Assembly (NCBI RefSeq): GCF_001632845.1
Contig: NZ_CP011994.1
Location: 3,296,001 to 3,360,000, forward strand
From: Ectothiorhodospira sp. BSL-9
GTDB lineage: Bacteria; Pseudomonadota; Gammaproteobacteria; Ectothiorhodospirales; Ectothiorhodospiraceae
DNA length: 64,000 nt
Direction of reading: 5' to 3'
In this document: piece after piece, positions 2,985-62,075 of the stretch
Layout of the letters: the number at the start of each line of letters is the position of its first letter
How positions within the stretch are numbered: the first letter of the stretch is position 1
The notes under the pieces: model-generated
Database searches by the model: none
The model's input: the letters and a program-made list of their open reading frames with translations, nothing else
What the model was told of the DNA's origin: nothing
Made by a program: the position numbers and the translations under genes

Positions 2985-5240
2985 TCAGAAGTCGTAGGTG
3001 GCGGACAGCCACAGACTCCGCCGGTCCAGATACACCCCGCTGGTGGCGGCGGCGGTCTGGGTGTACCGATAGGCGTGGTAGGTCTGAGCGTCGTGGACAT
3101 AGCTGTCCGATTTGCCGAAATCCTTGTCCAGCAGGTTGTAGACGGTGCCAGTCAGACGTACCCGATCGGACATGCGATAGGTGGCGCCCAGGTTGAACAC
3201 GGCGTAGCTGTCCAGCTTGTTACCCAGTTGCTGATACAGGGAAAGGTTCTGACCGGAAGTGGGCAGCCCGCCGCTAAACCGCTCCCGGGAGGAATAGAAC
3301 TCCCCGTCCAGGCGGGCCGACAGCCGGTTGCTGACATCCCACAGCAGTCGGGTGGTCAGGGCGTGCTCCGGCGTGTTGGTCAGCAGCAGGCCCTTCTGGT
3401 CACCGGAGCGGATCTCGGTGTCCGTATAGGTATAGCCGCCACTGATCTCCCAGGCCGGGGCAAAGCGATAACGGGCGCTCAGTTCCACGCCCTGGGAAAT
3501 GGCGCGGTCGATGTTCACCGACTGGGCGAAGTCTTCCTGCTCGGTGAAGTTGCCGATGCTCAGGCAGCCCGGCGTCCCGGCATGCGGCTGGCCGTCGTTC
3601 TCATCCATATACTGGCAATTGAGGATCCCCTCACCGCTGGCAATCCGATCGGTGAAGCGGGTATGGAAGAGCGTGACATCCGCCGACAGGCCGGCCCGGT
3701 TGTCAAAGCTCGCGCCCAGCTCATAGTTGGTGGTCTTTTCCGGCTTGAGATGGGGAGAACCGATGGTGATCGTGCGCCCCTGATTGGTGAAACCAGTAAT
3801 GCCGTCATGGAGCTGGTTCAGGGTCGGGGTCTTGTACCCCCTGCCGACGCCGCCCTTCAGGGTCCACTGATCATCGGTCTTCCAGACCAGGTAGGCGCGG
3901 GGACTGAAGTGTCCGTCGAAGGCGTCATGATTTTCATAGCGGGCCCCCAGGGTGAGGGCCAGATCATGTCTGAGCCACCATTCGTCCTCGACGAAGACCG
4001 ACCAGTTACTCTGCTCGAAGGCCTGATTACCCGCCGCACCATCTTCCAGTCTTGAATCCACATACTGTCCACCCAGGGTCAGCATGTGATCGCCAGCGGG
4101 CATGATCCACTTGCCATCCACCACCAGGTCACGGTTCTCCAGCAGCCTGGGCTCGCCACCCTGGGCCTCATAACCATAATCCGGCGCACTGCCCGCAGGC
4201 AGGGTGCGTCCCAGGGTCTCCGTGGTGATGCGGGTCACACTGCCTTCCAGGGTGCCGGCCTCGAAATGACCGCGATAACCCAGCACGGCCTGGTCCCGAT
4301 TGAAGCGCAGCTCATCTTCATAGCCCCAGACCGTACCGGGTTGTGGAGCGCAGGTATTACGGTTGGTCCCATCCAGGGTGCCCAGACGACAGTTTTCGTT
4401 GGAATAGGTCTGCCGGGCACGTTCCAGATCCAGCCAGACCTGCTGATCGTCCACGGGCGTCAGGGTCAGACGACCGCCCAGGGAGTGGATCCGGGCCTCC
4501 GGCGGGCGGGGATCGCGCCCGGCGCTGTTTTCGATCAACCGATCCGAGGCATCCCGGTCGAACAGGCGACCACGCACCTGCAGGCCCAACCGGTCCTCCA
4601 CCAGCGGTCCGGTGGTGAAGATGCTGATGCTGGAGCTGTTGCCGGCACTGCGGTCTTCCTGGAAGGTGTTTTCCACCGTGACGCTGCCCCCCCACTGCCG
4701 ACTGACCGGGCGGGTGATGATGTTGATCACCCCGCCCATGGCGTCCGATCCATACAGGGTGGACATGGGGCCTCGGATGACCTCGATGCGCTCAATGGCC
4801 GACAGCGGCGGCAGGAAGCTGGTGGAGGTCTCGCCGAAGCCATTGGGGGTGACATTGCCGGAGCTGTTCTGGCGGCGGCCATCGATCAGGATCAGGGTGT
4901 ATTCACTGGGCAGGCCGCGGATACCGATGTTCAGCCCACCGGTCTTGCCGGTGCCCGCCCGTACATCCACCCCCGGCACATCCGCCAGGGCCTCGGCCAG
5001 ATTGGAAAAACGGTGCTGTTCCAGATCCTCGCGGGTCACCACCGAGATGCTGGCGGGGGCATCCCGCAGCGCCTGCTCAAAGCCCGCGGCACTGATGACG
5101 GTGATCTCGTCCAGCCGGAGGGTTTCCGCGGCCAGGACGGAACCGGCCATGCCCCCCAGGGCCAGGGCCACGGCGGTCTTGAGCATCAGGGGGCGAAGGG
5201 TCGGGAATGAAGGTGCCGAAGGTCGGGCGGGTGAAACCAT
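2985..5240 (-). CDS. TonB-dependent outer-membrane receptor, siderophore type
   Basis: Outer-membrane gated barrel for uptake of a ferric siderophore or related ligand, energised by TonB. A signal peptide is visible (L-M-L-K-T-A-V-A-L-A-L-G-G-M-A-G-S-V-L-A/A-E). It is followed by a TonB-box-like L-D-E-I-T-V, a plug domain (S-V-V-T-R-E-D-L, P-G-V-D-V-R, I-E-R-I-E-V-I-R-G-P, G-G-V-I-N-I-I-T-R) and a long beta-barrel ending in Phe (S-A-T-Y-D-F). The plug resembles the FepA/CirA group; the ligand cannot be told from sequence. I preferred ATG 5240 because AGGAG lies 10 bases upstream and the signal peptide is then of normal length. It heads an operon with the PepSY-flavodoxin gene and sits behind a Fur-like box. 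Confidence 0.88.
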   Translation of the reverse strand: MVSPARPSAPSFPTLRPLMLKTAVALALGGMAGSVLAAETLRLDEITVISAAGFEQALRDAPASISVVTREDLEQHRFSNLAEALADVPGVDVRAGTGKTGGLNIGIRGLPSEYTLILIDGRRQNSSGNVTPNGFGETSTSFLPPLSAIERIEVIRGPMSTLYGSDAMGGVINIITRPVSRQWGGSVTVENTFQEDRSAGNSSSISIFTTGPLVEDRLGLQVRGRLFDRDASDRLIENSAGRDPRPPEARIHSLGGRLTLTPVDDQQVWLDLERARQTYSNENCRLGTLDGTNRNTCAPQPGTVWGYEDELRFNRDQAVLGYRGHFEAGTLEGSVTRITTETLGRTLPAGSAPDYGYEAQGGEPRLLENRDLVVDGKWIMPAGDHMLTLGGQYVDSRLEDGAAGNQAFEQSNWSVFVEDEWWLRHDLALTLGARYENHDAFDGHFSPRAYLVWKTDDQWTLKGGVGRGYKTPTLNQLHDGITGFTNQGRTITIGSPHLKPEKTTNYELGASFDNRAGLSADVTLFHTRFTDRIASGEGILNCQYMDENDGQPHAGTPGCLSIGNFTEQEDFAQSVNIDRAISQGVELSARYRFAPAWEISGGYTYTDTEIRSGDQKGLLLTNTPEHALTTRLLWDVSNRLSARLDGEFYSSRERFSGGLPTSGQNLSLYQQLGNKLDSYAVFNLGATYRMSDRVRLTGTVYNLLDKDFGKSDSYVHDAQTYHAYRYTQTAAATSGVYLDRRSLWLSATYDF

Positions 5241-5379
5241 GACGTGAAAACTCCTGACTTCATGCTGGTTGAATTGTTCCGGCAAACTGCCCGCCCTGGC
5301 CTGGAGTAAATCCAGAGGCAATGGCACGGCTGGATGGCAGAAATGAAAAGAAGGAATAACGAAGGTGCGAATGCCAATC

Positions 5380-5398
5380 GATATCGATTAATATTATC
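5380..5398 (-). promoter_or_regulatory. Fur-box-like operator upstream of the TonB receptor
   Basis: On the minus strand the sequence GATAATATTAATCGATATC matches the classical 19-bp Fur consensus at 15 positions by my count. It lies about 140 bases upstream of the chosen receptor start, in the receptor/response-regulator divergent region. Iron repression of the receptor operon is the natural inference; the divergent regulator could also be affected. Confidence 0.65.
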
Positions 5399-5517
5399 AG
5401 TCAGCGCCCCTCCTCCTGCGGCTCGGGCGGCACACCTTCACACAATCTCCACAATCTTCATGAGGTCCCCAAAGACGGCATGCCTGCTCCCCAGTTCCTC
5501 ATCCCGGGGTTCCTCCC

Positions 5518-6219
5518 ATGAAAACCGCCCATGTACTGGTTGTTGAGGACGAGCCCAAGATCGCCGCGCTGCTCTTGGATTACCTGCATCGGGATCACTA
5601 CGCGGTCAGCCTGCTGAACAGCGGTCTGCCGGTGATGGACAGGATCCGTGCTGCCACCCCCAGCCTGATCCTGCTGGACATCATGCTGCCCGACATGGAT
5701 GGGATCTGCCTGTGCCGGGAGATTCGGCAGATATCCACTGTGCCCATCATCATGCTCACCGCACGGATCGAGGAAGCCGACCGGCTCAGGGGCTTTGAAC
5801 TGGGCGCGGACGACTACGTCTGCAAGCCATTCAGCCCCCGGGAGGTCATGGCCCGGGTTGCGGCCCTACTGCGCCGGGCGGGACAGCAACACCCAGCGCC
5901 CACAACGGCCACCGAGTACACCTGGGGACTGCATCTTGAACCCAATAGCCATCGGGCCGTCCTGAACGGTCAGGAACTCATGCTTACCCCCGTGGAGTTT
6001 CGCCTGCTGCGGCAGTTTCATGGTCAGCCGAACACGGTCCTGAGCCGGGAAAGCCTGCTTGAGAACCTCTACGATGACCACCGAGTGGTAACGGCACGCA
6101 CAGTGGACAGCCACATCAAGAATCTACGCAGCAAACTACAGGCTGCGGCGCCAGCGCACCGACCGATCCAGGCCGTGTACGGCGTCGGCTACCGTTTTCA
6201 GCCACCCAGAGTCGGGTGA
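5518..6219 (+). CDS. OmpR-family response regulator (BaeR-like)
   Basis: DNA-binding response regulator of a two-component pair. The receiver domain shows the acidic pair E-D-E near residue 10, the phospho-acceptor Asp in L-L-D-I-M-L-P-D-M-D-G, the conserved Thr in M-L-T-A-R and the Lys in C-K-P-F-S. A C-terminal winged helix begins near residue 135 and ends T-V-D-S-H-I-K-N-L-R-S-K-L, typical of the OmpR/PhoB group. At 233 residues it has normal length. The sensor kinase starts 12 bases downstream, so the two are co-transcribed. It is divergent from the iron receptor operon; whether it regulates that operon is unproven. BaeR is the closest family I recognise, but the symbol is not certain. 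Confidence 0.88.
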   Translation: MKTAHVLVVEDEPKIAALLLDYLHRDHYAVSLLNSGLPVMDRIRAATPSLILLDIMLPDMDGICLCREIRQISTVPIIMLTARIEEADRLRGFELGADDYVCKPFSPREVMARVAALLRRAGQQHPAPTTATEYTWGLHLEPNSHRAVLNGQELMLTPVEFRLLRQFHGQPNTVLSRESLLENLYDDHRVVTARTVDSHIKNLRSKLQAAAPAHRPIQAVYGVGYRFQPPRVG

Positions 6220-6231
6220 TGTCCGCAGTCA

Positions 6232-7767
6232 ATGCCCATGGAAGAGGCATCGCCCCACTTCAATCCGCGCCAGGTCTCCCCGGTGGGTAGTGGCAAGCGG
6301 CATGGGGTGTGGGAGACGTTCGGTGCTCAGCCTCCCCTTGCTCGGGGTCTGCGCACCAAGTTGTTTCTGGCCATGTTGATCACCTTCGCCGTCCTGACCC
6401 TGGCCATCATGGGTGCCATGCGCCTGAGCTTTCAGCACGGGCTGACGGGCTATCTGGACCAGGTGGAGCAGGAGCGGGCGCAGAACTTCAGCCGCACCCT
6501 GGCGGCCTATTACCAGACCCACGGTAGTTGGGAGTCCTTACGGCAGAATCCGCGCCTATGGGGGCGCCTGCAGCGGATGAGCGACGGTGCGGCGCCCACC
6601 TATCCGGCCGAAGATGCGGTGCTCCAGGATCTGCTGAGGCGCCCGGGGCGTCTTGCTCTGCTGGATGAGACGGGCCGCAGGCTGATCGGCCCGTCCCTGC
6701 CGTTCCCGGATGAAGGGAAGCGTTACCCGGTGCAGGTGGGCGGCACCACCGTGGGCATCCTGTATGTGATGCCGTCCACCCATATCACCGACGGGCTGGC
6801 CCAGCAGTTCGAGCGCCAGCAGGGACGGATCCTGGGCCTCATCGGCCTGCTTGCCCTGCTGGTGGCCGCCGTCGCCTCCTACCTGCTGGCCAACCGCCTG
6901 CTGGGTCCACTGCAGGCCCTGACGGGAGGTACTCGCTCCCTGACCACAGGCAATTACTCGGCCCGGGTTCGACTGCACACCCGGGATGAATTCCAGACCC
7001 TGGCCGAGGACTTCAACCAGCTGGCGACCACCCTGGAGAAGAATGAAGCGGCCCGGCGCCGCTGGATCGCCGACATCTCCCACGAACTGCGCACGCCCCT
7101 GTCGGTACTGCGGGGAGAAATGGAGGCGCTGGAAGACGGTGTCCGCCCGCTGGACATGCTGGCACTCCAGTCACTGCAGGCTGAGGCGAGCCTGCTGGGA
7201 AAATTGGTGGATGATCTCTATCAGCTGGCCCTGTGCGATGTGGGCTGCCTGGACTGTCACCGGGAAAACGTGGACATGATCGCCCTGCTGCGGGAGACCG
7301 CGGTCCAGCACCAGACCCGTTTCACCCAGCAACGGCTGACCATCACCCAGGCACTGCCGCCCGCCCCGGCCTTCGTTCAGGCCGACCCGACCCGCCTGAA
7401 GCAGTTGCTGAACAACCTGCTGGAAAACACCCTGCGTTACACGGACCCCGGCGGCAGACTGCATGTGGAGGCCCGGCAACAGGATCGGCAGCTCATCATC
7501 ACCCTGGATGACACCGCCCCCGGCGTGCCCGCGGATGCCCTGCCCCTGCTGTTCGAACACCTGTTCCGGGTGGAGCCCTCCCGCAGTCGGCGCCATGGCG
7601 GCGCGGGCCTGGGTCTAGCCCTGTGCCGGCGCATCGTGGAAGGTCACGGGGGGCGAATCACTGCCGCGCCCTCGCCCCTGGGCGGACTGCGGATCACCAT
7701 CTGCCTGCCATTGACCAGCTGCGCGTCGGTGGGCCAGAGCTGCCGCGGCGCTGATGGCAAGGACTGA
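6232..7767 (+). CDS. Sensor histidine kinase (BaeS-like), partner of the upstream regulator
   Basis: Inner-membrane sensor kinase. A first transmembrane helix (K-L-F-L-A-M-L-I-T-F-A-V-L-T-L) is followed by a periplasmic domain of about 130 residues and a second helix (I-L-G-L-I-G-L-L-A-L-L-V-A-A-V). A HAMP linker follows, then the H-box D-I-S-H-E-L-R-T-P-L, the N-box N-L-L-E-N-T-L-R-Y and the G-boxes D-T-A-P-G-V and G-G-A-G-L-G-L-A. The canonical D-x-G-x-G is replaced by D-T-A-P-G, as in several BaeS-type kinases. The annotated Met adds about 40 polar residues before the first helix, so a later start is possible. The signal sensed is unknown. Confidence 0.87.
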   Translation: MPMEEASPHFNPRQVSPVGSGKRHGVWETFGAQPPLARGLRTKLFLAMLITFAVLTLAIMGAMRLSFQHGLTGYLDQVEQERAQNFSRTLAAYYQTHGSWESLRQNPRLWGRLQRMSDGAAPTYPAEDAVLQDLLRRPGRLALLDETGRRLIGPSLPFPDEGKRYPVQVGGTTVGILYVMPSTHITDGLAQQFERQQGRILGLIGLLALLVAAVASYLLANRLLGPLQALTGGTRSLTTGNYSARVRLHTRDEFQTLAEDFNQLATTLEKNEAARRRWIADISHELRTPLSVLRGEMEALEDGVRPLDMLALQSLQAEASLLGKLVDDLYQLALCDVGCLDCHRENVDMIALLRETAVQHQTRFTQQRLTITQALPPAPAFVQADPTRLKQLLNNLLENTLRYTDPGGRLHVEARQQDRQLIITLDDTAPGVPADALPLLFEHLFRVEPSRSRRHGGAGLGLALCRRIVEGHGGRITAAPSPLGGLRITICLPLTSCASVGQSCRGADGKD

Positions 7768-7896
7768 GCGTGCACCCACATCAGTAGAGGAGGCGACCTG
7801 TGCAAGGGAAGCTGTGCACCGACCATCCACTCGGTTAGGCTATCGTCCAGGTGCGCAGTGCTCCCTGGCGAGTTCCAACAAAAGGCCCACTTGAAC

Positions 7897-9003
7897 ATGG
7901 AAAGACAGCTGGCAACGGAGAAACAGTGGCTGCGTACGCGGCTGGAATCCCTGATCGATGCGGCTCGGGAAACCGAGCAGAAGCTCAACCGTCTCGCGGC
8001 TCTGGAACTGCGCCTGCTGGAGGCAGACGACCTCTCGTTGGTGCTGGGGATTCTCCTGGAGGATCTCAAAACCGGCTTTGAGCTGGACCAGGTGGCCCTG
8101 GTGCTCTGCGATGCCCGGGGTGATCTGCACACTGCCCTGGAAAGCCACAGCCTGCCCGAACATTGGCCATTGAGGCTGATGGAAGACCCCGCCCCGCTAC
8201 AGGATTTGCAGGCACCCACCCTGGGCCCGCCGCGGGATGACGACCCGGAGGTCCTGGATTTTTGCGGCATGACACAACTGGCCAGTCGCGCCCTGTTGCC
8301 ACTGAGGCGGGGCAAGGATCCCATCGGCCTGCTTGTTCTGGGCAGCCAGCGGGCTGAGCGTTATAGCGCCGACCAGGACACCTACCTGCTCAAGCGACTG
8401 GCTGCCGTGGTTTCGGTGTGCCTGGCAAACACCCTGTCATCCTGGCGACTGCGGGAAATCGGCGTGACCGACCCGCTCACCGGTATGCGTAATCGCCGGT
8501 TCTTCGATCAGCGACTGCAGGACGAGATCCTGCGCATGGAGCGGGAAGGCCATGCGCTGGCCTGCCTGTTTGTGGATATCGACCACTTCAAGCGAGTGAA
8601 CGATGACCACGGCCATGCTGCCGGGGACCGGGCAATCACGGCGGTGGCACAGCGCCTTGCGCACCATCTGCGAAGGTTTGATTTGCTGGCCCGCTACGGT
8701 GGAGAGGAATTCGTGATCCTTCTGCCCGGCCTGGAGCCTGCGGAAATGCACTCTGTCGCCGAACGCATGCGCCAGGGCGTTGAGGCCACCCCCGTGCCCC
8801 TGGATCAGGAAGACGAAATCTCCGTCACCGTCTCAATTGGCGCGGCCCGCCTGCCGCCGAGGCTGCTGAGGGAACACCCGCCCGAGGAGCGGGCCCGAGT
8901 CCTGCTGAACGCGGCTGATCATGCCCTGCTCCAGGCCAAGGAGTCGGGTCGCAACCGCCTGGTCATCTCTCAGGAGTTCTGTAGTGTGCGCCCGGCTAGC
9001 TGA
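7897..9003 (+). CDS. Diguanylate cyclase with DUF484/GAF-like sensory domain
   Basis: Predicted to make cyclic-di-GMP from two GTP. The N-terminal half is a coiled-coil segment followed by a GAF-like DUF484 domain (L-L-P-L-R-R-G-K-D-P-I-G-L-L-V-L-G-S). The C-terminal half is a complete GGDEF domain with D-P-L-T-G-M-R-N-R-R-F-F, F-V-D-I-D-H-F-K-R-V-N-D and the active-site motif R-Y-G-G-E-E-F. The product-inhibition site RxxD is present as R-R-F-D five residues before GGEEF. No membrane helix is seen, so it should be cytoplasmic. I chose ATG 7897 over an in-frame GTG at 7858. Its 3' end overlaps the convergent neighbour by 34 bases. Confidence 0.85.
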   Translation: MERQLATEKQWLRTRLESLIDAARETEQKLNRLAALELRLLEADDLSLVLGILLEDLKTGFELDQVALVLCDARGDLHTALESHSLPEHWPLRLMEDPAPLQDLQAPTLGPPRDDDPEVLDFCGMTQLASRALLPLRRGKDPIGLLVLGSQRAERYSADQDTYLLKRLAAVVSVCLANTLSSWRLREIGVTDPLTGMRNRRFFDQRLQDEILRMEREGHALACLFVDIDHFKRVNDDHGHAAGDRAITAVAQRLAHHLRRFDLLARYGGEEFVILLPGLEPAEMHSVAERMRQGVEATPVPLDQEDEISVTVSIGAARLPPRLLREHPPEERARVLLNAADHALLQAKESGRNRLVISQEFCSVRPAS

Positions 9004-15791: not shown

Positions 15792-15853
15792 CACGGCAGT
15801 ATACCGGACGAACGATCCGCTATACTGCGCCGGAGAATTCATCAACCCGCTGT

Positions 15854-16029
15854 CGGGTGCCCGTTCATCCACGGGAGAATCGGGAATGCGGTGGGGTGAT
15901 CGATCGATGATCACCGAGTCCGCAACGCGCCCAGCGCTGTGAGGGGGATCGCGCAGACATCAAGCCACTGCCATGGGCGGGAAGGCGTCTGCGCGGGACG
16001 AACCCGAGTCAGAAGACCGGCCCGACAGT
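15854..16029 (+). ncRNA. Cobalamin (B12) riboswitch
   Basis: The leader of bluB contains the B12-box core A-A-G-C-C-A-C-T-G followed by C-G-G-G-A-A-G-G-C-G near 15961-15985. The 3' block C-C-C-G-A-G-T-C-A-G-A-A-G-A-C-C-G-G-C-C follows at about 16003-16022. The upstream part has G-G-G-T-G-C-C-C and G-G-G-A-A-T-G-C-G-G-T-G, as in the 5' half of the class. The downstream gene makes the lower ligand of B12, so feedback repression by the cobalamin end product is the expected logic. Boundaries are approximate. Confidence 0.9.
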
Positions 16030-16088
16030 TTCTTTGCACGGCAGCAAGGCCGGGCTGCCGTCCCACCTGCTTGAACAAGGGGAACAAC

Positions 16089-54080: not shown

Positions 54081-54823
54081 TCCCGCAACAACTTCTCCAC
54101 TACACCCCCGCATCGGACCTGTTCAAGGATCGGGTGATCCTGGTCACCGGCGCCACCGGGGGCATCGGTCGTGCCCTGTCCCTGGCACTGGCCAGGCACG
54201 GTGCCACCGTGGTGCTGCTGGACAAGGTGATCAAGTCACTGGAAAAGGTGTACGACGAGATCGAGGCCGAGGGCGGCCCGCAGCCGGGCATTTACCCCAT
54301 GAACCTGGAAGGCGCCACCGCCAAGGACTACCAGGACCTGGCCGATAATCTGGGAAACGAGTTCGGGAGACTGGACGGCCTGGTGCACAACGCCGGCTGG
54401 GTGGGCGCTCTGACCCCATTGAAGTTATATGACCTGGAAATGTGGGCCCGCGTCATCACGGTGAACCTGCACGCCCCCTTCCTGCTGACCCAGGCCACTC
54501 TCCCACTGCTGGAAAAGGCGCCAGACCCGGCCATTGTCTTCTCCACTCAGGACTGCCAACGCGCCTACTGGGGCGCCTTCGGCGTGGCCAAGGCCGGCCA
54601 GCGCGGATTACTGGACATCCTGGCAGCCGAGTACCAGGGGGCCCGACGCATCCGGGTGAACGGCGTGGATACCGGCCCGGTGCAGAGCCAGTTGCGGGCC
54701 GACCATTACCCCGGAGAGGATCCCAGCCAACACCCTGAACCGGCGGAGGTGATCGGACCCTATCTGTATCTCCTGGGCCCGGATGCCGGGGAGACGACCG
54801 GGCAGAACCTCAAGCTGGCCTGA
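54077..54823 (+). CDS. YciK-like short-chain dehydrogenase lacking the catalytic Tyr
   Basis: A 248-residue Rossmann protein of the short-chain dehydrogenase family, nearest to the YciK type. The cofactor motif T-G-A-T-G-G-I-G is intact, as is the N-A-G block (V-H-N-A-G-W-V-G). At the active site, however, Y-x-x-x-K is replaced by F-G-V-A-K, and the usual Ser-containing loop reads F-S-T-Q-D-C-Q-R. It may have no ordinary dehydrogenase activity. The start ATG overlaps the hpnE stop, so it is translated with the squalene operon. A role in that pathway is possible but unproven. Confidence 0.85.
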   Translation: MIPQQLLHYTPASDLFKDRVILVTGATGGIGRALSLALARHGATVVLLDKVIKSLEKVYDEIEAEGGPQPGIYPMNLEGATAKDYQDLADNLGNEFGRLDGLVHNAGWVGALTPLKLYDLEMWARVITVNLHAPFLLTQATLPLLEKAPDPAIVFSTQDCQRAYWGAFGVAKAGQRGLLDILAAEYQGARRIRVNGVDTGPVQSQLRADHYPGEDPSQHPEPAEVIGPYLYLLGPDAGETTGQNLKLA

Positions 54824-54887: not shown

Positions 54888-55032
54888 TGGCCCGGAGGAG
54901 ACAGCGCCCCGGGGTTGTCCTATACTCCCACTTAAAGATCCGGCTCTGACGAAAAACCTTGGCGGCGGCGCCATTGGAAATGCGCATCGGAACAGCATTC
55001 GACGGTATGGAAATCAATCACAGGCGGGCAGC

Positions 55033-55560
55033 ATGCTGCCGATGAGAGGGGCTACCCGGGCCCTACTGTTTTGCCTGCTTGTTTGCCTACCCGCCCACAC
55101 GGTCGCGGACACCCCTTCCGAGTACCAGCTCAAGGCGGCCTTTCTCTATAACTTTGCTCTTTTCACCGAGTGGCCAGAACACGTCGGTGATACCCTGAAT
55201 CTGTGCGTGTACGGCAGTGACCCGTTCGGCGACGACCTCCTCAAACTCGAGGAACGATCGGTGGGGACTCGCCGACTGAGCGTTCATTTAACACCCACGC
55301 TGACCGAGTTAAGCAACTGCGAATTGGTGTTCATCAGCCGTGCTGCCATCGGTCAGCTGCCGCAGATCCTCGGGACAGTACAGGGTTCACCGGTATTGAC
55401 GGTGGCCGACTCGCCCAGCGCCATGCGCCGCGGGGTGGCGATCAACATGATCACCCAGCACAACCGTATCGCCTTTGAGGCCAACCTGACCGCGGCGCGC
55501 GCCCAGGGCCTGAATCTCAGTTCAAGATTGCTTCGCCTGGCGGAGGAGGTGGAGCAATGA
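55033..55560 (+). CDS. YfiR-family (DUF4154) periplasmic protein
   Basis: A 175-residue exported protein. A signal peptide is visible ([17 protein letters not shown]), followed by the family hallmark [18 protein letters not shown] near the start of the mature part. The block [11 protein letters not shown] and the final [15 protein letters not shown] are typical of DUF4154. YfiR of Pseudomonas binds a periplasmic partner and represses a diguanylate cyclase. Here it is the first gene of an operon, and its stop overlaps the start of the hybrid kinase by 4 bases, suggesting it modulates that kinase. Confidence 0.9.
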
Positions 55561-57914
55561 CCGCCACCGCTCCCGGCAGTGATCAACCCCTCTCCCTCGC
55601 GGACCGGCTGCGGCGTATCAATGGCACGGCATTGGTGATCTCGGTCACCATCATGGCGATCATCACCATTCTCGGGGGACTGACCGTCAACCTGCTCAGC
55701 ATGGTGGATGCCAACCGGGTGAAGACCAGAGTCCTGGCAGACAACGCCGCAGCGAGCTTGCTGTTCGATGACAAGAAGGCCGCCGGGGATCTGCTTGCCT
55801 CCCTGCGTCACTCCCCCGATGTACAGGCTGCGGTCATCCACGACCGCCATGGTGAGCCCTTCGCCCACTATGAATCGGCACCCGGCATTCGTGTTCATCA
55901 TGTGGGGCATTTTCAGGAAGAGACCCGCTACGGCCTGACTGCGGTCAGGCTGACCCAACCCATCACGCTACAAGATGACACCCTGGGGACCATTCAAACC
56001 GTCATCGGACTGCGATCGCTCTACATTCAGATGGTGGTGCTGATCCTGATCACGGCGGCGGCCGCCGCACTGGCCCTGCTCACCAGCCGGATTCTGATGG
56101 CACGCCTGGTCGCCCGCGTGATCCAGCCGGTCTCGGCCCTGACTGCACTGATGAAGCGTGTCACGCAAGCTGCCGACCTGGGTGTGCGTGCCAGCAACAG
56201 CGACATCCTTGAAATCCGGACACTTGCACAGGGCTTTAACGGCATGCTGGAAGAAATCCAGGAAAGGGATCGACGCCTGGGCTTGCAAAAGGTGCGCCTG
56301 GAGGAAGAAGTATCCACCCGAACCGCCGAGTTGCTGCAAGCCAAGGAGGCCGCAGAAGCCGCCAACCAGGCCAAGAGCGAGTTTCTGGCCAATATGAGCC
56401 ACGAGATCCGGACCCCAATGAATGGAGTGCTGGGCATGAACGAGTTGCTGCTGCACAGCCCCCTGGACTCCAGACAGCGCCAATATGCGGAAACGGCCCT
56501 CGAGACCAGCCGACACCTGCTGAGCATCATTGACGATATCCTGGACTTCTCCAAGGCGGAGTCTGGCCATATGCATCTGGAGTCGGTGGACTTTGATCTG
56601 GTGGCGCTGGTCCATGGCTGCGTCCAATTATTCCAGGAACCTGCCGCCAGAAAGGGCCTGAACCTGTCCACGGAATTCTGTCCCGCAGATAAAGCATTCT
56701 GGTTTCGGGGCGACCCCCTCAGGCTCCGCCAGGTATTGACCAATCTACTGAGCAATGCGATCAAGTTTACCCATCAAGGCAGCATCCACGTGTGTGCCAC
56801 GATCAAGGTCAGGCCAGACCAGAAGGGGTCCATTCACCTGCAGGTCAAGGATACCGGCATCGGGATTGCGCCTCAGGCCAGGGATCTCATATTCGAGCGT
56901 TTCGCTCAGGCAGACGGCTCAACGACCCGGCGCTACGGAGGGACCGGCCTGGGGCTGGCGATCTGCAGGCGTCTGGTGGAACTGATGGGAGGCAGCATCC
57001 ATGTGGATAGCACTCCTGGACAAGGGTCGATTTTATGCGTCCATCTGGAGCTACCGCTGGGTGCCTGCCCCACCGATACGCAAGACACGCCCGAGGAAAC
57101 CCGATCAGGGCAGGATATCAACGGGACCTGGAGACTGGATGGATGTATCCTTCTGGTTGAGGACAATCCGGTCAACCAACTGGTTGCCCGTGCCATGCTG
57201 GAGCAGCTGGGGCTCCGGGTCAGCATGGCCAATGACGGAAAGGAGGCATTGTCCATGCTGACGGCAAACGCGGTGGATTTGATCCTGATGGACTGTCGCA
57301 TGCCGATCATGGACGGCTATCAGGCAACCGAGGCGATACGCGAAGGTCGCGTGCCAGGCCGCGACAAGACCCCCATCATCGCGCTGACGGCCAATGCTTC
57401 CAAAGAGGAACAGGATCGATGCCTGGCGGTCGGCATGCAGGCCTGTCTGCCAAAGCCTTACACCATCGAGCAATTCTACACCCTGCTGCGCCAATGGCTT
57501 CCTGCCACCCCCCTCCCCCACACCCACGCGGCGTCCTCTGCCCAGGAATGCAAACCCGATGACCGTGCCATGCTGCATCCGCAGGATCTCGATAAGCTGA
57601 AAGCTCTGAGCCCGGGCCAGGACCTTCTGACAAGAGTATTTCAGGCCTTTCTGGACACCACTCCCCCGCTGATCCAGAAGATTGACAAGGCTTTGACAAC
57701 GGGCGATATGGAAGGCCTGCGCAGCGCCAGCCACGCCCTGAAATCCAGCTCCGGTAACGTGGGGGCCAGGCAACTCTCCGAGATCTGCCGGCAACTGGAG
57801 ATTTGCGCGCGTGAGAATCGCATGCGTGATACCGATAGTCTGTCCACATCATTCCAGCAGGTATCACGCGCAACCCTCAATGAAATCCGCGAACGGATCA
57901 AGGCGGCCCCATGA
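55557..57914 (+). CDS. Hybrid sensor histidine kinase with receiver and HPt domains
   Basis: A 785-residue membrane phosphorelay protein. Order: helix 1 (about 27-50); a periplasmic CHASE8-like sensor (about 51-155, with [11 protein letters not shown]); helix 2 (about 157-178); HAMP; coiled coil; H-box [10 protein letters not shown]; ATPase boxes N-A-I-K-F-T and D-T-G-I-G-I, with G-G-T-G-L-G-L-A; a receiver domain with V-E-D-N-P-V-N and phospho-Asp in L-M-D-C-R-M-P; and a C-terminal HPt with [10 protein letters not shown]. All key residues are present. It overlaps the YfiR gene before it and the REC-GGDEF-EAL gene after it by 4 bases each, so the phosphoryl path to the latter is the obvious inference. 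Confidence 0.92.
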
Positions 57915-59995
57915 ACGAGCCTGTAAGGATTCTGCTGGCTGACGACGATGTAACCGCGCTCATGCTGATGACCGCTGCCCTGGAGGCGGCAGATTTCATG
58001 GCGATCAGAGCCGAGGATGGTGAACAGACACTGGCATGTTTCGCCCAAACACCTTGCGACATGGTGCTGCTGGATGTGGACATGCCCGGCATGGATGGTT
58101 TCGAGACCTGCCGACGCCTGCGCCACCTGGCCGGTGACGAACTGCCCATCGTCATGGTCACCGGCATGGATGATGTGGACTCCATTGCCCGTGCCTTCGA
58201 GGCTGGCGCCACCGACTTCATCTCCAAACCCATCCACTGGAACCTCATCGGACACCGGATCAAGTACCTGTGGCGCACACATCTCACCCGACTTGATCTG
58301 CAACGGGCCAATGCTCGCAATGCCGCCATCCTGAGTGCGCTACCGGATACCCTCCTCCGGCTCAGTGATGACGGCACCGTGCTGGACCGACTGGCAGGGC
58401 ACCATGATCAGGCCCACCCCGGACCCGGAGCCAGTCTGCAGGACAGCCTGCCCGAGGAGGTTTCCCGGGCTTATACGGAAGCCATACAACAGGCGCGTTC
58501 AGCCGGCGAGCTGCAGGATATTGAATACTCGCTTCAGGAGGTGGACGGGCCCGTTCGCTACTTTGAGACCCGTATCGTGATCATCGACGATCAGGAAACA
58601 CTCTGCCTTATTCGAGACATCACACGACGCAAGGAAGCCGACGATGAAATACACCGACTGGCCTATTACGACACGCTGACGGGGTTGGCGAATCGCCAGC
58701 ATCTCGTGGATCGCCTGGAGGGTGAAATCCGTCGCGCCCAAGGCAGTGCCCGTCAGCTGGGCGTGCTGTTCCTGGACCTGGATGGCTTCAAACAGATCAA
58801 CGACACGCTGGGCCACGCCACGGGGGATGTCTTGCTGCAGCATGCCTCCCACCGCCTGCGACTGGGTGTGCGTCCCACGGATACGGTCTCCCGCCCCTCG
58901 ATTCAGCATCAGAACATCAGTCTGGCCCGCCTTGGAGGGGATGAATTCACCGTCATCATTCCAGACATGAACCATCCCGAAGATGCCCTGGCGGCAGCCC
59001 ACCGGATACAGGAACTCATGCGACAGCCATTCTTCATTGCAGATCGGGAGATGGTCGTCACCGCCAGTATCGGCATTGCCGTGTTTCCCGATGATGGGGA
59101 AGATGCAGACACACTGCTCAAACATGCCGACACGGCCATGTACCATGCCAAATTCCTGGGGCGCAACAATGCTCAGTTTTACAGCCCCTCGCTCACCCAT
59201 GAGGCCATGCGGCGTCTGAACATGGAGAGTGACCTGCGCCGCGCCCTGGAATCACAGGAGTTTTTCCTCGTCTATCAACCCCAGGTGGACCTGCAGACCG
59301 GGAAAATCCACTCCGTCGAAGCCCTGATCCGCTGGATGCACCCGCAGCAGGGGTTGATATCCCCCGTGGAGTTCATCCCCCTGGCCGAAGCCAATGGGCT
59401 GATCGTCCCCATTGGCGAGTGGGTCTTGCGCATGGCCTGCCAGGACGCCGCTCGCTGGCAGGCCATGGGCTTGCCGCTGGAGATGGCAGTCAACCTCTCC
59501 CCGGTGCAATTCAGAAACGGCAGCCTGACGCGCAAGGTGCGGGACATCCTTGAGGACACCGGCCTGGGTGCCGAATTCCTTGAACTGGAGATCACGGAAA
59601 CCATACTCATGGACGAGAGCATCACCACACTGCAAACCCTGCATGAACTGCAGGAACTGGGGGTCAAATTCTCTCTCGATGATTTCGGCACCGGCTACTC
59701 ATCCATGAGCTACCTGACACGGCTGCCTTTGAACAACCTCAAGGTGGACCGCAGCTTCGTCAGTGGACTACCCCATGATCCCGGCAGCCTGGCGATCATA
59801 AGAGCCATTATTTCCTTGAGTGAAAGCATGGGCTTCACGGTCACCGCAGAGGGAGTGGAAAACCTGGAGCAGGTGAAGATCCTGATGCAGCAGTCCTGTC
59901 ATACTCTCCAGGGGTATTACTTCAGCAAGCCGGTTTCGGCAGACCAGATCCCAGCCTTGCTTGGCCAGGGCTGGGATTTTGATCGTCTCTCATAA
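57911..59995 (+). CDS. Response regulator with GGDEF and EAL domains
   Basis: A 694-residue cytoplasmic protein. Order: receiver domain (A-D-D-D near residue 11, phospho-Asp in [11 protein letters not shown], Lys in I-S-K-P), a short PAS-like linker (about 140-240), a GGDEF domain with an intact active site R-L-G-G-D-E-F, and an EAL domain with E-A-L-I-R-W and D-D-F-G-T-G-Y-S. Both catalytic motifs look intact, so the protein could make or degrade cyclic-di-GMP. An insertion ([10 protein letters not shown]) lies between the RxxD-like R-P-T-D and GGDEF. Phosphorylation by the upstream kinase probably selects the activity. Confidence 0.92.
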
Positions 59996-59999
59996 CATC

Positions 60000-62075
60000 A
60001 TGAGTGCCCATGTCATGGACAGGTTCGCAGCCCACAGACGCATCCCCGTCATTTCCTGTCTTCTGATCATCTTCTGTGGTGCCAGTGCCCACGCGCAGGA
60101 CTCGGACATTGAGCGTTTTCTTGAACTGTCTCTGGAAGACCTGCTCCAGCAGGAGGTGATCTCCGCCAGCCGTGGCGCCCAGCCCCTGTCCGATGTGGCC
60201 GCCGCCGTGCACGTCATCACCGCTGAGGACATCCGGCGATCGGGGGCCCGCTCCCTGCCGGAGGCCCTGCGCCTGGCTCCGGGTGTGGATGTGGCCCGTA
60301 TCAGCGCGGATCGCTGGGCAGTCTCCATCCGCAGTCATACGGAATACCTCTCCAACAAACTCATGGTGCTGGTGGATGGGCGCAGCGCCTACAGCCCCAA
60401 CTTTTCCGGTGTACTCTGGAATACGCTACCGATCCCCCTGGCGAACATCGAGCGCATCGAAGTCATCCGGGGGCCGGGGGGAGCCGTCTGGGGTGTGAAC
60501 GCGGTCAATGGTGTCATCAACATCATCACCCGCTCATCCCACACCACCCATGGCACGCTGGTCAGCGCCGGGTATGGTGATGATGTCGGCCCGTTCAGCC
60601 TGGTGAGACAGGGAGGCAGCCTGGGAGAAGACAGCAGCTTCAACGTGTATGTGCAAAACACTGGCCAGCGTGATTCCCTCAAGGAATCCGGCGATGATCA
60701 CCGCGACCAAGCCAATCACCTGTCGGCCGGGTTTCGCATGGATGGAGACGAGACGGCGGGCCGATGGATGGTGTCCGGCAATCTCTATAGAACGGAGTCG
60801 GATGGGATCGGTGTTGTCAGGGATCCTTTCCAGCCTCCTCCCCTGTACCGACGGGTGGAAAACATCACCGACCGTTTCTCTGGCGCTGATCTACAAACCA
60901 GCATGACCCGGAAGACTTCGGAGCGCTCTGAAATCAGACTCAATGCCTCCTGGAGTTACTCCGATCTGGAAGCAACCATGCTGGCGGATCAACAGCAGCA
61001 TATCGTTGATCTGGAATTACAGCAGCGTATCGGTTTTTCGGGCCAGCACACGCTCACCTGGGGTGCCGGATATCGCTGGTATCAGGACAGCATCTCCGAC
61101 GGCCTGACCACTCGCATCGAGCAGTCCAGGGAAACCCTGCACATTGCCAGCCTGTTTGCTCAGGATGAGATTGAACTGACCGAGGGGCTGAGACTGACGC
61201 TTGGCGGCAGACTGGATCACAATAGCTACACCAGCAGCGAAATCCAGCCCACCATCCGCATACTGTGGAACATGACGCCCCAACACAGCCTGTGGAGTTC
61301 ACTCTCCCAGGCCAAACGCATTCCTTCACGGGGGGAACGCACAGCAGACTACATCCTGACGGTGGCACCACCCGGCGTGGTCTCGTTTGACTCACCGCTG
61401 GATGACTCAGTGGCCGGCCTGCCGATACAGGGTGAGGTTCGCGGTAACGATCGTTTTGGGTCGGAACGCCTGACGGCGTTCGAGGCAGGTTACCGGGGGC
61501 AGCTCTCCCCCGAAGTCTATCTGGACGTGACCGCCTTCATGCATCGTTACGACAATCTCAGAACGGCCACGGTGATCACCGATCCCGACGATCTCCTGAT
61601 CAGTGAAGATCGTCAATACCTGATCGCCCCCAATGATTTCATCAATACCGGCGAACTCACCGTAACGGGTGTGGAGCTTTCAGGCGACTGGAGGCCCACG
61701 GAGAGGCTGCGTTTCCAGCTCGCCTACAGCTTCAATGACACGGGTGAATTCACGGGAGGGGATCAGCTGTTTTCCAGCTTCATCCCCAGGCACATCACCT
61801 CGTTGCGCAGTTCATGGAGCCTCAATCACCACACGGATCTGGACATGTGGGTCAGGCACGTGGACTCGCGTGACCGACCCTTCCTCACCCCGCTGGATGA
61901 CTATACCACCATGGATCTCAGGGTGGCCTGGCGACCGGACAGCGCGATAGAGCTGGCCCTGGTGGCGCAGAACCTGCTGGATTCCGAACGAACCGAGTAT
62001 TTTTCCGTGACCCCAACGTTCCAGCCAGCCCAGACGCGTCGGGGTGTTTACGGGCAGATCAGGCTCAGCTTCTGA
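60000..62075 (+). CDS. TonB-dependent receptor linked to the c-di-GMP signalling operon
   Basis: An outer-membrane barrel protein of 691 residues. The signal peptide (P-V-I-S-C-L-L-I-I-F-C-G-A-S-A-H-A-Q) is followed by L-S-L-E-D-L-L-Q-Q-E-V-I-S-A-S, the plug (A-A-A-V-H-V-I-T-A-E-D-I-R-R-S-G-A-R, P-G-V-D-V-A-R-I, I-E-R-I-E-V-I-R-G-P-G-G-A-V-W-G-V-N-A-V-N-G-V-I-N-I-I) and a barrel ending in I-R-L-S-F. It belongs to the large group of plug-containing receptors with W-G-x-N-A-V-N, not the classical siderophore group. It starts 4 bases after the REC-GGDEF-EAL stop, so it is in the same operon. The ligand is unknown. ATG 60015 is an alternative start. Confidence 0.9.
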   Translation: MSAHVMDRFAAHRRIPVISCLLIIFCGASAHAQDSDIERFLELSLEDLLQQEVISASRGAQPLSDVAAAVHVITAEDIRRSGARSLPEALRLAPGVDVARISADRWAVSIRSHTEYLSNKLMVLVDGRSAYSPNFSGVLWNTLPIPLANIERIEVIRGPGGAVWGVNAVNGVINIITRSSHTTHGTLVSAGYGDDVGPFSLVRQGGSLGEDSSFNVYVQNTGQRDSLKESGDDHRDQANHLSAGFRMDGDETAGRWMVSGNLYRTESDGIGVVRDPFQPPPLYRRVENITDRFSGADLQTSMTRKTSERSEIRLNASWSYSDLEATMLADQQQHIVDLELQQRIGFSGQHTLTWGAGYRWYQDSISDGLTTRIEQSRETLHIASLFAQDEIELTEGLRLTLGGRLDHNSYTSSEIQPTIRILWNMTPQHSLWSSLSQAKRIPSRGERTADYILTVAPPGVVSFDSPLDDSVAGLPIQGEVRGNDRFGSERLTAFEAGYRGQLSPEVYLDVTAFMHRYDNLRTATVITDPDDLLISEDRQYLIAPNDFINTGELTVTGVELSGDWRPTERLRFQLAYSFNDTGEFTGGDQLFSSFIPRHITSLRSSWSLNHHTDLDMWVRHVDSRDRPFLTPLDDYTTMDLRVAWRPDSAIELALVAQNLLDSERTEYFSVTPTFQPAQTRRGVYGQIRLSF

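Follow-up and report, generated by a model that had tools for sequence, protein, structure and literature searches.

A conserved gene set that probably links the state of a TonB-dependent receptor, through periplasmic YfiR and a membrane-bound kinase, to an enzyme of cyclic-di-GMP turnover

TonB-dependent transducers of the FecA/FpvA type are outer-membrane receptors that signal across the cell envelope together with anti-sigma and sigma factors. In the published YfiBNR system of Pseudomonas aeruginosa (Malone 2010, 2012), YfiR represses YfiN by way of the periplasmic domain of YfiN, and YfiB sequesters YfiR. Divergent Yfi systems are reported to combine a core of YfiR and the YfiN periplasmic region with outputs swapped to kinase, HPT or GGDEF-EAL modules; most of these divergent operons are without YfiB, and Thauera has two YfiR proteins with one hybrid kinase (Malone 2012, PMC3375315). 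The same paper called the activating signal of Yfi systems an open question, and the word 'TonB' is absent from its main text. Searches of freely accessible main texts gave no paper on a TonB receptor working with YfiR. Caulobacter HmrA was considered as a precedent and set aside, as it is a hybrid kinase affecting cyclic-di-GMP (c-di-GMP), but the available text mentions no YfiR. The kinase output of YfiR systems is thus already known from Malone 2012, and what appears new in the locus described here is a TonB-dependent receptor in the place of YfiB.

The window, i.e. the whole stretch of DNA analysed, comprises 64,000 nucleotides of the purple sulfur bacterium Ectothiorhodospira sp. BSL-9, whose genome is a single contig of 3.55 Mb with one DUF4154 match. 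ORF coordinates and domain searches bear out the four-gene set proposed in the initial annotation, with its domains and its spacing (Table 1): 4-base ATGA overlaps join the YfiR and kinase genes (55557-55560) and the kinase and response regulator genes (57911-57914), and four bases separate the stop codon of the response regulator (TAA, 59993-59995) from the receptor ATG at 60000. The upstream neighbor, a YciK-like SDR gene, ends at 54823 and leaves a gap of 209 bp to the operon; downstream, a convergent HhH-GPD gene ends 22 bp past the receptor. Promoter and terminator scans of the putative operon gave counts at chance level.

Table 1. Coordinates of the putative operon and of the site preceding it (positions in the window)
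Feature	Position	Strand	Basis
YfiR-like periplasmic protein (DUF4154), 175 aa	55033..55560	+	ORF list, domain search
Hybrid histidine kinase CHASE8-HAMP-HisKA-HATPase-REC-HPt	55557..57914	+	ORF list, Pfam
REC-PAS-GGDEF-EAL response regulator	57911..59995	+	ORF list, Pfam
TonB-dependent receptor, plug + barrel	60000..62075	+	ORF list, Pfam
Sigma-70-like site GAGACA-17-TATACT	54898..54926	+	only plus-strand site 5' of the operon; site count at chance level

The first protein matches DUF4154 (YfiR/HmsC-like) at 5e-44 and PDB YfiR chains at an E-value of 8.5e-7, and it carries a putative signal peptide; the assignment of the YfiR fold rests on this match and on an AlphaFold model with a mean pLDDT of 89.8. 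In the kinase, a CHASE8 match (1.5e-16) spans residues 54-147, and HAMP, HisKA, HATPase_c, Response_reg and Hpt domains are called by Pfam, which likewise recovers Response_reg, PAS_4, GGDEF and EAL in the response regulator. Intact motifs are seen for autophosphorylation, the two receivers, HPt, GGDEF and EAL. The set thus has every part of a multistep phosphorelay, with HisKA, HATPase, REC and HPt in the kinase and a further REC in the response regulator, and their acceptor residues are intact. In common with YfiBNR, the set has a YfiR homologue, a CHASE8/PAS domain with its docking Phe, a HAMP domain, a c-di-GMP end point and an outer-membrane partner. It differs in that a TonB receptor takes the place of the lipoprotein YfiB, that the CHASE8 protein ends in kinase, REC and HPt domains whereas YfiN ends in its own GGDEF cyclase, and that its YfiR is without the second Cys pair of the Pseudomonas protein. 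The OmpA-like lipoprotein YfiB had no match among the 372 ORFs of the window. Unlike the FecA/FpvA type, the receptor shows only the Plug and TonB_dep_Rec barrel domains, with no STN domain called (E up to 0.001), and the operon holds no FecR-like protein or sigma factor. The short N-terminal tail of the receptor carries the subfamily motif LSLEDLLxxEV.

The YfiR gene is present in 6 of 10 Ectothiorhodospira genomes, that of the window included, and the order YfiR, kinase, REC-GGDEF-EAL, receptor is kept in all six; the five other orthologues share 72-93% identity with the window receptor and 74-95% with the response regulator. For a wider view, 398 genomes sampled from the phylum were surveyed with NCBIfam NF053591, which matched 94 of them, and 114 loci from this survey together with six from the genus make up our YfiR-chosen set of 120 loci (the survey matches G169:C130, G405:C8 and G042:C29 lie outside it). 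Domain models made from the window and its relatives were trained on the L058-L177 matches, and the same models were used to score 40 control regions of 16.4 kb placed at random on contigs holding YfiR matches. Among the 121 YfiR ORFs in these loci, 77 have a same-strand receptor and 15 a same-strand YfiB at a distance of up to 5 kb, 29 have neither and none has both. CHASE8 kinases lie near 70, CHASE8-GGDEF proteins near 28 and CHASE8 alone near 4; six YfiR ORFs are fused to a kinase, two are near a kinase and two near a GGDEF protein without a CHASE8 call, and nine have none of these. In the controls, counted on both strands up to 5 kb from the center, a receptor occurred in 1/40, a kinase in 10/40, a GGDEF protein in 4/40, and CHASE8, YfiR or YfiB in 0/40. 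Given the rarity of receptor, CHASE8 and YfiR in these controls and the constant order within the genus, the gene set is not a chance assembly. The pairing of YfiR with a kinase in place of a cyclase, to which the initial annotation drew attention, is accordingly common, but it is not new (Malone 2012, PMC3375315). Six YfiR-kinase fusions (L141, L151, L155, L157, L159, L170) are single ORFs with an N-terminal YfiR, a long coiled-coil-like stretch and a histidine kinase, with no CHASE8 call; L141 and L151 were checked by Pfam.

The linkage was also approached from the receptor side, using an alignment (A3) of YfiR-linked receptors from which one out-of-frame row (L095) was left out. A profile search of genome contigs with A3 yielded at least 575 relatives, of which the best 80, at 79 loci, were kept. 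A same-strand YfiR lies no more than 5 kb away in 67/79 of these loci. As A3 was built from YfiR-linked receptors and the best 80 of at least 575 were retained, this proportion applies to receptors closely related to that of the window; CHASE8 is present too in 57/79, YfiR without a CHASE8 call in 10/79, and neither in 12/79. Of these 79 loci from the best 80, 3 belong to Ectothiorhodospira; the others include Desulfobacterota-type, Nitrospira, Verrucomicrobia, Armatimonadota and Zixibacteria genomes, many of them metagenome assemblies. Among cultured organisms, receptor, YfiR and kinase occur with a REC-GGDEF-EAL gene next to the kinase in Thiocystis minor (L226), Denitromonas iodatirespirans (L278) and Zoogloea oleivorans (L283). 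The conserved neighborhood expected by the initial annotation is therefore found within the genus and from both directions of search. Its view of the unit as a trans-envelope pathway is partly upheld: the genes stay linked among genus members and well outside the genus, but c-di-GMP is not the sole output.

This pathway reading is now better founded than sequence alone could have made it, and the mechanism that we infer draws on analogy with YfiBNR, on the linkage and on the docking features described below. The four-gene set probably relays the state of the receptor through periplasmic YfiR to the membrane kinase and the c-di-GMP enzyme. More specifically, we assign a probability of roughly 0.6 to a trans-envelope switch resembling YfiBNR, in which the TonB receptor replaces YfiB and a kinase relay replaces the YfiN cyclase. 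Periplasmic YfiR would use a hydrophobic pocket to bind the kinase at its CHASE8 domain and hold the kinase in one state. In one of its own states, ligand-bound or TonB-energized, the receptor would capture or otherwise withdraw YfiR, perhaps through its periplasmic N-terminal tail or its plug, so that receptor occupancy would be the input and the signal would flow inward. CHASE8 freed from YfiR would then change kinase activity; phosphate would pass from HisKA to REC, to HPt and finally to the receiver of the neighboring REC-PAS-GGDEF-EAL protein, and this protein would in turn raise or lower c-di-GMP.

The docking step is suggested by residues on both putative faces. In P. aeruginosa YfiN, A66, A67, V68 and F70 were proposed as the YfiR site, and F151, E163, I169 and Q187 of YfiR are reported to influence binding to YfiN (PMC3375315). 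The window CHASE8 reads ASLLF with F70, a docking-type motif resembling AAVVF, and this column is Phe in 155/156 CHASE8 domains from these loci; 118 of the 156 sit on kinases. Six pocket columns of YfiR hold hydrophobic residues in 99-100% of the 144 receptor-linked proteins and in 15/15 of those linked to YfiB, a pattern that could instead reflect core packing. Against the docking analogy, the window has Ala at the position of Pseudomonas YfiR I169 and Ser at that of YfiN A67; Pseudomonas residue numbers were transferred by reading of the sequence alignment. The window pair Cys58-Cys96 is the counterpart of the first Cys pair of Pseudomonas YfiR, which is found in 15/15 YfiB-linked, 91/144 receptor-linked and 19/29 YfiRs with neither partner. 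The second pair (C145-C152), where the window reads M131 and N138, is present in 15/15 YfiB-linked, 0/144 receptor-linked and 2/29 YfiRs with neither partner. In the YfiB-YfiR crystal structure, E144 and S146, neighbors of this second disulfide, are reported to touch YfiB (PMC4655355). The distribution may point to two kinds of YfiR, each adapted to its own outer-membrane partner, and it could equally be a lineage mark.

All 15 YfiB-linked YfiRs are at CHASE8-GGDEF loci. The three YfiB queries, which match OmpA in Pfam, came from L158, L163 and L176, themselves among these 15 loci, and were chosen for their position and appearance. On a YfiR tree of 188 rows and 148 columns with many open forks (the genus repeats L218-L220 were left out here and from the distances), a single switch between receptor linkage and YfiB linkage suffices if rows without either partner are set aside; with these rows included, YfiB changes twice and the receptor (TBDR) 20 times. 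Output type changes 11 times. The mutual exclusion of receptor and YfiB may thus rest on one or two evolutionary switches, and the loci are therefore not independent tests of it. In 94 complete operons, rank correlations of tree distances are 0.53 for receptor-YfiR, 0.50 for CHASE8-YfiR and 0.53 for CHASE8-receptor, and by the same measure 0.41 for kinase core-receptor, 0.36 for kinase core-YfiR and 0.22 for kinase core-CHASE8, with permutations that ignore kinship; co-variation is hence stronger among the parts facing the periplasm than between the CHASE8 domain and the core of the same kinase. With the other two held constant, partial correlations are 0.28, 0.31 and 0.36 for the first three pairs, and 0.28, 0.19 and -0.05 for the last three. 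Co-inheritance without contact can produce all of these values, and the partial correlation of kinase core and receptor equals that of receptor and YfiR.

Three other explanations were considered. The one that survives best, which we nevertheless judge unlikely, is that the receptor imports a ligand that is bound by YfiR or CHASE8 and so acts on the kinase, making a touch between receptor and YfiR unnecessary. It would accord with the recurrence of receptor-YfiR pairs, two or more at some loci, and with the report that the pocket of Pseudomonas YfiR for F57 of YfiB also binds vitamin B6 or L-Trp, but the affinity given there is weak, about ten millimolar (PMC4887326). Moreover, YfiB, which occupies the receptor's place in the mutually exclusive systems, is no transporter, and clustering of 2951 neighboring ORFs revealed no common uptake or ligand-processing genes near the module.

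A less probable account, to which we give little credence, reverses the direction: the kinase and c-di-GMP branch would answer some other periplasmic cue through YfiR and CHASE8, with the receptor as a co-transcribed target or cargo rather than the sensor. The place of the receptor as the last of the four genes in the window, its position downstream of YfiR in 24/77 cases, and the reported variation of the abundance of the Thalassolituus receptor TOL_0244 with growth substrate (PMC6304351) are in its favor, but the receptor is upstream of YfiR in 53/77, it and YfiB are mutually exclusive, and the distances of receptor, YfiR and CHASE8 correlate. Gene order among full sets varies, with the receptor first in the eight non-genus loci from the best 80 of at least 575 receptor relatives and last in Ectothiorhodospira. 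That YfiR acts on the kinase and the receptor is a functionally unrelated passenger is very improbable, since the linkage appears from both search directions, in many lineages and in either gene order, even though linkage by itself is no proof of function and some kinase-YfiR loci have no receptor (15/70 CHASE8-kinase loci within 5 kb, some on short contigs). These 15 loci, together with the 12/79 receptor-chosen loci where YfiR was not found, also weigh against the YfiBNR-like switch.

To return to the YfiBNR-like switch, its final step is touched upon by the genes that follow the kinase. A REC-GGDEF-EAL gene follows the CHASE8 kinase in 8/70 YfiR-chosen loci and in 11/52 receptor-chosen cases from the best 80 of at least 575 relatives; the two sets share genus loci, and 11 such loci remain outside the genus (L063, L128, L139, L224, L225, L226, L245, L269, L278, L283 and L296), the first three having no receptor within 5 kb. 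In five further loci (L244, L254, L262, L264, L294), a single ORF of 1648-1735 residues combines CHASE8, kinase, REC, HPt, GGDEF and EAL. Pfam calls on four of these (all except L254) give CHASE8, HAMP, HisKA, HATPase, three REC, Hpt, GGDEF and EAL, i.e. one REC more than the two window proteins combined; the best REC match of L244 and of L294 is flanked by Hpt and GGDEF, the arrangement that would result from joining the two window genes. Fusions and adjacent genes provide indirect evidence that kinase and cyclase/phosphodiesterase share one pathway, and the five fusions with the 11 non-genus loci lend indirect support to a step from HPt to REC. As many loci have other neighbors, c-di-GMP is just one of several outputs. 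The window response regulator has about 11 additional residues separating its RxxD motif from GGDEF (residues about 320-346), with a similar insert in the five genus orthologues, L225, L226 and L296 and none in L245; they may displace the product-inhibition site.

At several loci (L224/L277, which are overlapping stretches of one contig, L236, L238 and L239), multiple YfiR and receptor genes accompany one or no CHASE8 gene, and receptor-YfiR pairs outnumber CHASE8 genes at L224 and L236; these loci look as if several inputs feed one sensor. One genome (G130) has seven YfiR-like matches. On a broader scale, we regard it as an even proposition that receptor, YfiR and CHASE8 form a general second route of TonB-receptor signaling without STN, anti-sigma or sigma factor, in which the receptor, by its periplasm-facing part, draws YfiR away from inner-membrane CHASE8 proteins with interchangeable outputs (kinase relay or cyclase), classical YfiBNR being a side branch with an exchanged outer-membrane partner. 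Were the YfiBNR-like reading true, a TonB receptor acting through YfiR would be the missing, ligand-specific outer-membrane input of Yfi systems, so that the question of the Yfi signal could be tested receptor by receptor, and in many environmental bacteria TonB receptors would gain a non-FecA route that ends in kinases and c-di-GMP.

The best named families for the first and fourth genes are the NCBIfam entries TOL_0243 YfiR-like (NF053591) and TOL_0244 TonB receptor (NF053590), for which the window proteins score 117.5 against a cut-off of 125 bits and 546.7 against 645 bits, respectively, both below. The tags suggest neighboring genes in Thalassolituus oleivorans; the names cover the YfiR-like and receptor families, and the kinase and response regulator are not in them. 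In Thalassolituus, the TOL_0244 receptor is reported to be sevenfold up on n-C28 alkane relative to Tween 80, with 40.3% similarity to OmpS of Alcanivorax (PMC6304351); alkane sensing by way of this likeness is a lead only. Matches of the receptor profile to solved structures, among them siderophore, colicin I and B12 receptors and many best in the plug, gave nothing specific as to the ligand. The clusters of neighboring ORFs, with representatives judged by eye, likewise held no recognizable common ligand pathway and consisted largely of antisense artefacts, generic ABC ATPases and housekeeping genes confined to particular lineages. LSLEDLLxxEV was considered as a mark of YfiR linkage and proved to be one of the receptor subfamily, occurring in 99/147 linked and 9/33 unlinked receptors, high-scoring ones included.

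Elsewhere in the window, at 2985-9003, a minus-strand gene for a second TonB receptor points away from plus-strand signaling genes that lie close together and encode a Trans_reg_C response regulator, a HAMP kinase and a DUF484/GAF-GGDEF protein; here too a receptor has a kinase and a cyclase as neighbors, but no YfiR. A cobalamin riboswitch is found at 15838-16039 (105.3 bits).
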